Shown here piece by piece: positions 36,457-37,155 of a DNA stretch of 64,000 nucleotides (position 1 is the first letter of the stretch; every line of letters starts with the position of its first letter). The DNA is taken from assembly GCF_027532185.1 (NCBI RefSeq), contig NZ_JAPZSV010000010.1:124001-188000 (forward strand), in the 5' to 3' direction. Made by a program: the position numbers and the translations under genes. The notes beneath the pieces were generated by a model. It searched no databases. It worked only from the letters and a program-made list of their open reading frames with translations, and was not told the origin of the DNA. Source of the DNA: Hylemonella sp. GTDB lineage: Bacteria; Pseudomonadota; Gammaproteobacteria; Burkholderiales; Burkholderiaceae_C.

Positions 36457-36600
36457 ATGTCAACCAAGACATCCATCTCAGGACTGTCGGACGAAGAAGC
36501 TCAGGAGTTTCACCACTACTACATGCAAGGATTTGTGGGATTTACGGCCGTGGCTGTAGTTGCACACATTCTGGTGTGGATGTGGCGCCCCTGGCTCTGA
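36457..36600 (+). CDS. pufB: LH1 antenna beta polypeptide
   Basis: 47 residues. Typical beta: acidic N-terminus ([19 protein letters not shown]), one membrane helix, bacteriochlorophyll-ligating His in [19 protein letters not shown] lies six bases before the ATG. It forms LH1 subunits with PufA around the reaction centre. The usual direct pufB-pufA neighbourhood is interrupted by the 74-residue ORF that follows. Confidence 0.96.
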
Positions 36601-36636: not shown

Positions 36637-36861
36637 ATGCAACACACCCCATTACTCGAAGACGACCGTGCGCTTGCGCACGAGTCTCAGGCTTTCTGGA
36701 CGATCTTCCTGCTGGCTTTTGTTCTTCTCTTCACGGTAGTTCTGCTGGCCAAGCTGGTAGGCATGCCGTGGCGGGAGATCCTGCCCGGCGCGGAGCACGC
36801 CAAAGGCATCGGTCAAGGTGTGAAAGCGGCGGTTTACACCTTCATGTCCCACATCATCTAG
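36637..36861 (+). CDS. Unknown single-pass membrane protein inserted between pufB and pufA
   Basis: 74 residues with its own ribosome binding site (GGAG about 10 bases upstream) and its stop overlapped by the pufA ribosome binding site (TAGGAGA). Acidic N-terminus ([12 protein letters not shown]), one helix at about 20-42 ([20 protein letters not shown]), then [16 protein letters not shown] and a mildly amphipathic C-terminal helix ([14 protein letters not shown]). There is no His in the helix, so it is not a normal bacteriochlorophyll-binding antenna chain. The segment [10 protein letters not shown] faintly recalls the beta motif [11 protein letters not shown] with His replaced by Lys. By position and size it could be a ring-associated or gating peptide like PufX or protein W, but no homology is shown. 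Confidence 0.75.
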
Positions 36862-36871
36862 GAGATACATC

Positions 36872-37072
36872 ATGTGGAGAATTTGGCGACTTTTTGATCC
36901 GCTGCGCACCATGGTGGCCCAGGCCATTTTCCTGTTCGCGCTGGCAGCGATGATTCACCTCATCCTGCTGAGCACCAACAAGTTCAACTGGCTGGACGGA
37001 GCGAAGAAGCCGGCGGCGACAACGGGGCAGTACACCCCCTTGCCGCCCTCGGCTCCTACCGCGAAGTCCTGA
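36872..37072 (+). CDS. pufA: LH1 antenna alpha polypeptide
   Basis: 66 residues. Typical alpha: [13 protein letters not shown] at the membrane interface, one helix with the ligand His in [16 protein letters not shown], then a tail ([22 protein letters not shown]) longer than in many LH1 alpha chains. AGGAGA precedes the ATG by six bases. It pairs with PufB in LH1. Confidence 0.96.
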
Positions 37073-37091
37073 GCCCTCAAGCCCAGCGCAG

Positions 37092-37118
37092 GTGCTGATG
37101 CGGGACAGCGTCCAGCAC
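37092..37118 (+). repeat. Stem-loop in the pufA-pufL spacer
   Basis: GTGCTG (37092-37097) pairs with CAGCAC (37113-37118) around a 15-base loop, with extra partly paired flanks (CAG and CTG). It lies between the antenna and reaction-centre genes, where purple bacteria carry mRNA hairpins that leave pufBA more abundant than pufLM. The stem is short; role inferred by position. Confidence 0.35.
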
Positions 37119-37155
37119 AGCATCTGCCCATCACAGACTAGCAGGAGACCACACC

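Follow-up and report, generated by a model that had tools for sequence, protein, structure and literature searches.

The DNA analysed here was a 64,000-nt window of Hylemonella sp. (NZ_JAPZSV010000010.1, positions 124,001–188,000 of the forward strand), and all coordinates are positions in this window. Ten genes lie in one direction in the order bchC, bchX, bchY, bchZ, pufB, X, pufA, pufL, pufM and pufC. The names pufB and pufA were assigned by NCBIfam models and pufM by TIGR01115, and the bch genes, pufL and pufC were named from reading their translations. As shown in Table 1, X is an ATG frame between pufB and pufA. It begins 36 nt from the end of pufB and ends 10 nt before pufA, and its ATG is preceded by GGAG, confirming the 74-codon frame with its own ribosome binding site and operon spacing that had been described in an earlier note on this DNA.

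Table 1. Features of the pufB–X–pufA region and their positions in the window
Feature	Position	Strand	Evidence
pufB, short LH1 beta, 47 aa, ends WRPWL, no tail	36457–36600	+	NF040862, 85.9 bits (cut-off 61)
X (ORF2/ORF74 in the literature), very probable pigment-less beta paralogue, 74 aa	36637–36861	+	
Transmembrane helix of X, residues 19–42	36691–36762	+	hydropathy; model helix 7–41
Codon AAG (Lys39) at the bacteriochlorophyll-ligand His position of beta	36751–36753	+	alignment to beta
Conserved C-terminal tail of X (W45–I74), homologous to some long-beta tails	36769–36858	+	
pufA, LH1 alpha, 66 aa	36872–37072	+	NF040861, 68.1 bits (cut-off 35)
Strong stem-loop between pufA and pufL	37088–37127	+	fold of 37066–37155

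When the 271-nt pufB–pufA gap was shuffled base by base, 36 of 2000 shuffles contained an ORF of at least 74 aa, a chance of about 2% by length alone; the reality of the gene was settled by conservation. Among pairs of 222-nt copies of X, 806 of 9453 differed by 3–25%, and 20, 15 and 65% of their substitutions fell at codon positions 1, 2 and 3, respectively. The dN/dS ratio (Nei–Gojobori) was 0.00–0.36 in 17 individually reported pairs; over 1648 non-independent pairs with an X dS of 0.1–1.0 it had a median of 0.32, a 90th percentile of 0.64 and a maximum of 1.00, and in the neighbouring genes the median was 0.094 (beta, 1360 pairs) or 0.129 (alpha, 1549 pairs). Thus, X evolves faster than pufB and pufA yet is clearly constrained by purifying selection. 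Frame 0 was open in all 179 fetched copies, which is not independent evidence because the copies were retrieved as open-frame matches. The earlier note had named a frame missing from close relatives, or a dN/dS near 1, as grounds against its reading; the frame was found in 7 of the 26 genomes of the window's genus, and the ratios lay mostly far below 1. No Pfam or NCBIfam model scored over its cut-off on the X of the window.

X lay between pufB and pufA in the 35 loci fetched first (L001–L035). A pufM match was obtained in 64 of 399 sampled genomes of the family (61 over the curated cut-off), and these comprised 53 with pufB-X-pufA (30 loci from the first X search and 23 from later searches), seven with a long beta and no X (G065, G083, G133, G171, G194, G195 and G224), one with a short beta and no X (G139), and three that were cut or rearranged and were left unclassified (G232, G331 and G394). 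The earlier description of X as an extra gene between two normally adjacent ones therefore does not hold for this family, where pufB-X-pufA is the usual arrangement (53 of the 61 judgeable pufM genomes). The phototroph G139 (locus L123) has 47 nt between pufB and pufA, and its lack of X is probably a loss; since it has a short beta without X, X is not indispensable.

In the order sample, 47 of 399 genomes matched the X profile, and their loci read as 39 with X, five with a long beta and three with a short beta, the last three having another small ORF upstream of pufB. The 39 genomes with X spanned nine families (f1, f2, f3, f8, f10, f13, f18, f20 and f30), although X in f3 was weak and its contig stops after X. 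Outside the order, the profile matched five of 369 genomes from the class and 13 of 365 from the phylum (the totals were 7 and 16, the remainder belonging to the order); none of these five and 13 had pufB-X-pufA, and one of the five matches (G813) was not at a puf locus. Four alphaproteobacterial plasmid records annotated with pufB and pufA, from six fetched of 11 with pufM, encoded nothing between the two genes, and none of nine pattern matches in viral contigs encoded a relative of X. In a scan of named genomes, the best 80 of 151 loci included Limnohabitans, Rubrivivax and Piscinibacter; two loci of Rubrivivax gelatinosus (L092 and L100) and one of R. benzoatilyticus (L097) had X after pufB and upstream of pufA. 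Two loci labelled Akkermansia muciniphila and Candidatus Fonsibacter lacus (L051 and L086) carried pufB-X-pufA operons like those of Burkholderiales, and are probably mislabelled or contaminated MAGs. Nine further loci (L144, L149, L151, L152, L154, L155, L190, L195 and L196) had divergent LH1 beta and alpha genes with X retained between them; the alpha scores of this set were 41–53, and most others scored about 100–135.

The relationship of X to known proteins was read from searches of the PDB and from profile comparisons. A single-sequence search with X gave the LH1 beta chain 8z81_B as top match (E 3.8e-4), and a profile of 35 X proteins matched 8z81_B at E 2.9e-15, 9m8m_B at 1.3e-12 and 7xxf_B at 2.8e-11; among the 45 PDB sequences matched by this profile beta chains were found, and none was an X protein. 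Compared with a profile of 11 long betas, X gave a probability of 99.4 and a score of 102.8 over 67 of 74 columns. The controls were 16.0 for alpha and 0.4 for PufX (two sequences), and they carry the homology argument, because the E-values of one-to-one profile comparisons are uncalibrated. Matches to family models were weak or absent: the X of the window had no match to PF00556 or NF040862 at E 10, PF00556 matched 7 of 35 X proteins at E 1 (best 2.6e-4), and scores below cut-off were given by the X of L103 (20.8 bits with PF00556, cut-off 23) and that of L092 (18.3 bits with NF040862, cut-off 61). Unrelated membrane models matched X as well or better (DUF2567, 9 of 35; DMT_YdcZ, 7 of 35). 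In the genome of the window, LHC gave a single beta and a single alpha match, and neither PufX (PF11511) nor PufQ scored over cut-off.

The ligand His of beta aligned with column 39 of X, which is Lys39 in the window. Among 156 distinct X proteins the commonest residue here was Gln (83), followed by Lys (31), Ser (20), Thr (9), Leu and Ala (3 each) and Asn (2), and E, C, R, G and H occurred once each; the ligand His was thus missing from 155, the lone His being in L149. Gln is able in principle to bind (bacterio)chlorophyll, but a residue so variable is hardly a ligand. Taken together, the comparisons indicate that X is almost certainly a ligand-less paralogue of LH1 beta, which bears out the earlier suggestion of a degenerate beta duplicate with Lys in place of the ligand His. 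Derivation of X from alpha, or X as the source of Gemmatimonas pufA2, was rejected on the alpha comparison and is also rejected in the relevant section of PMC12817894; identity with PufX was rejected on the PufX comparison.

The protein has one hydrophobic stretch, at residues ~19–42, in agreement with the single helix at about 20–42 proposed before, and its best Kyte–Doolittle window begins at residue 23 (score 2.91). One face of the helix is conserved (positions 24, 28, 31, 35 and 38, being F, F, L, V and A in the window and most commonly F, F, F, A and A in the family), and its residues are common to beta; the conservation moment of 7.25 at 100 degrees, calculated without a shuffle control, was the largest of six angles. 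X is without the conserved beta N-terminus, which ring betas keep. Mean information rose along the protein, from 1.18 bits in residues 1–19 to 2.26 in 20–44 and 3.08 in 45–74. AlphaFold2 (44 sequences) predicted helices at 7–41, 45–48 and 58–73 with a mean pLDDT of only 68.1, and Foldseek with this low-confidence model returned three matches to E 10 and none to 0.001, none of them useful. The amphipathic C-terminal helix of the earlier note was recovered as the predicted helix 58–73, its amphipathy being weak (moment 0.30, residues 57–74). At its two ends X has net charges of −0.7/+0.7, short beta of −3.0/+1.0 and long beta of −2.2/−0.2; these values do not decide the topology of X, which was therefore taken from its homology to beta, a protein with a cytoplasmic N-terminus and a periplasmic tail.

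A feature missed by the earlier reading is that X pairs with a shortened beta and bears a tail like that of long betas. After WRPW, long betas have 22–28 residues and betas beside X have 1–3. All 164 distinct X operons had a short beta followed by X, and none of 25 long-beta operons had X; X lay between beta and alpha in 162 of the former, and the contig ended after X in the other two. These operon counts are non-independent because the operons are related and were mostly found through X, and the family sample is the fairest version of them. They derive from 227 loci read, from which were left out ten lacking a scored beta, X or alpha frame (L124, L125, L127–L132, L156 and L157), eleven set aside by hand (the repeat operons L126, L158, L160, L161, L209–L212, L226 and L227, and L208, which is not a puf locus), eight exact beta+X DNA duplicates and two incomplete loci (L115 and L207). 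Seven operons had a short beta without X: no partner was found in three (L123, from G139, L224 and L225), and the other four (L201–L203, from one family of the order, and L205) had an upstream ORF of the Q-like kind described below. The X–pufA gap was 10–22 nt (10–13 nt in 139 of 162 operons) and resembled the gap of 10–16 nt between long beta and pufA in 25 operons, as would be expected of a gene that retains the 3′ end of an old beta.

An HMM of the X tail alone matched five long-beta tails (from f11, f30 and f43) at 29–37 bits, or at 16–35 bits when the PGAE part was removed; among 1040 shuffled tails the top scores were 6.2 and 5.5 bits, respectively. Two of the five (L193 and L194) are identical, and so strong a match was seen in only five of 26 long-beta tails, none of them from the window's own family. 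Among the other 21 tails, those of L213 and L214 exceeded every shuffle weakly with the PGAE part (9.8 and 8.7 bits), and none of the 21 did so without it. Judged against 40 shuffles of its own, a tail did better in 13 of 26 cases with the PGAE part and in 7 of 26 without.

A tree was built from 121 identity-thinned rows (57 X, 33 short beta, 24 long beta and 7 Q-like) and 74 columns, with a bootstrap that had not settled. All 57 X rows formed one clade (support 99/100) on a long branch, placed beside no particular long beta, the five with matching tails included. Short and long betas were intermixed, with 8 and 10 changes and at least two of each by the starred branches; as neither kind forms one clade, the tree gives no support for a single loss of the beta tail. 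Within one genus (g170, of f30), long-beta operons (L193, L194 and L197) occurred alongside X-type operons (L162, L173, L177, L179 and L196), a hint that cluster transfer or later change has mixed the two kinds. The simplest history would be that a long beta was duplicated once in tandem and its parts were divided between the copies, one keeping the pigment and the other the tail, and X looks like a single old duplicate of long beta.

Published transcript data exist for Roseateles depolymerans. There ORF74 (RD2015_RS05155) lies between pufB (RS05150) and pufA (RS05160) on the major 1-kb puf transcript, and in a delta-SP70 mutant 2.34% of ORF74, 0.71% of pufA and 1.09% of pufB were left, these being the three most reduced genes according to the parts of PMC10037100 concerned with them. 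In the window, the segment containing the stem-loop after pufA folded at −32.4 kcal/mol (z −2.27), a value equalled by 5 of 200 shuffles. Such a structure may stabilise a pufB-X-pufA message at its 3′ end, and would fit a short message like the 1-kb transcript. No secondary structure was detected between pufB and X (z −0.03), and the single terminator-like site within pufA was at chance level.

How X might act can be outlined from its descent. The ancestor would have been a single long beta (~76 aa) directly before pufA, which was then duplicated in tandem. The first copy would have kept the pigment site and lost the tail, giving the short pufB. In the second, which became X, the ligand His and the conserved beta N-terminus would have disappeared and the transmembrane face and the tail would have been retained. 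By homology to beta, X should span the membrane in the same orientation, the N-terminus being cytoplasmic and the tail periplasmic, and should pack against alpha as beta does. Lacking the ligand, it could not hold bacteriochlorophyll in the normal way and would leave a pigment-free seam in the LH1 ring at the place of a beta. The conserved tail may anchor this seam on the periplasmic side, to PufC, alpha or an adjacent beta, and X, in one or a few copies per reaction centre, may help to close the ring, to attach the cytochrome subunit or to let quinone pass. For our preferred proposal, that X is a pigment-less accessory subunit of RC-LH1 at a special place in the ring, arisen through a divided beta duplicate, we consider the chances to be evenly balanced.

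The main rival is that X is a PufQ-like factor of assembly or pigment handling. Located in the membrane while the complex is being made, it would direct (bacterio)chlorophyll, or precursors of it, to newly made alpha and beta, and would not last in RC-LH1. For PufQ itself, ferrochelatase binding and an effect on porphyrin flux are reported in the portion of PMC5725709 dealing with it, which also gives the features that X shares with PufQ: a size of 74 aa, a single helix, a conserved C-terminus and a variable N-terminus. Only 141 nt separate bchZ from pufB in the window, and the genome is without a PufQ over cut-off. Against it, the gene position differs, PufQ genes lying upstream of pufB and X following pufB in the 164 distinct operons. 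Pfam PufQ (PF05398) had no match to the X of the window at E 10 and was absent among 25 of the 26 families listed for the 35 X proteins, while three annotated PufQ proteins used as control scored 59.8–137 bits. Compared directly, X and a PufQ profile of three sequences gave 46.4 with the tails unaligned, a weak match next to the 99.4 with long beta; long beta and PufQ did not match (3.9). The idea that X is simply a relocated PufQ is weak on this score and on the separate clade of the ORFs that follow.

These Q-like ORFs lie upstream of pufB in some other lineages (G830, G923 and G1182; family f23) and speak for the rival: their profile gave 98.3 with X and 98.9 with long beta, and 67.6 with PufQ, rising to 83.8 when THSYN_RS31365 of Thiodictyon was added (alpha control, 6.9). 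Against the rival, the tree placed them in a clade separate from X (99/94). Such ORFs were seen at L204, L205, L221, L201–L203 and L233 (1620–1844) and are not called PufQ by Pfam; one of them is THSYN_RS31365, annotated as hypothetical. The Q-like ORFs, perhaps with PufQ too, may be further ligand-less relatives of beta. On balance, a PufQ-like role for X seems rather unlikely. Still less probable, in our judgement, is that X resembles gamma, with many copies filling the spaces between beta chains so that quinone pores are sealed and the ring is stabilised. The position of ORF74 on the abundant pufBA message allows a high copy number, and gamma-like peptides occupy 11 of 16 sites in Rhodopila (relevant section of PMC9640540); the Rhodopila peptide, as described there, has 22 aa, the opposite orientation and a gene away from puf, whereas X has 74 aa, is beta-like and has a conserved tail. 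It would also be conceivable that X is a translational spacer or decaying relic that sets the beta:alpha ratio, its protein being unimportant. The absence of X from the G139 lineage, the degenerate ligand site and N-terminus, and a median dN/dS above those of beta and alpha would agree with this, but purifying selection, the codon-position pattern and a tail that is the most conserved part across nine families make it very improbable.

Returning to the accessory-subunit reading, we tentatively propose, as a possibility and with less confidence than its general form, that in phototrophic Burkholderiales the pigment-free beta copy became an RC-LH1 subunit specialised as a seam or gate. The ring would then be opened or anchored by a descendant of the antenna chain, independently of PufX, protein-W and gamma. 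Many RC-LH1 structures have already been solved. Should X be part of the particle, an unseen core subunit would be present in many phototrophic Burkholderiales (Limnohabitans, Rubrivivax and Piscinibacter, and Roseateles by place), and quinone passage through their ring would become directly testable. The switch between short beta with X and long beta would be a clear case of duplicates dividing the parts of one protein.

The gene itself is already in print. ORF2 of R. gelatinosus has the same place as X, after pufB and upstream of pufA, and its function is given as unknown, after Nagashima 1994, in PMC12817894, where the section concerned compares it with PufA2 (10.1–14.5% identity, alpha His missing) and not with beta. 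ORF74 of Roseateles depolymerans has an X-like place by its locus tag and 74 codons by its name, so that its identity with X rests on place and length as given in the part of PMC10037100 cited above. A published link of X, ORF2 or ORF74 to beta was not found in a search that left most subscription papers outside, and a term search of the review PMC10214105 gave neither Rubrivivax nor PufQ; relative to the literature found, the beta-paralogue nature of X seems new. PufX, protein-W and gamma are small membrane peptides that modify the LH1 ring, and the likeness of X to them is hypothetical; protein-W (RPA4402), for instance, is described in the relevant part of PMC7806223 as a 10.5-kDa protein with three predicted helices. 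The closest known relatives are the long LH1 betas (8z81_B, 9m8m_B and 7xxf_B), to which X is homologous over the helix and the WR motif, and in 8z81_B also in the PGAE tail, and from which it differs in being without the ligand His and the conserved beta N-terminus.
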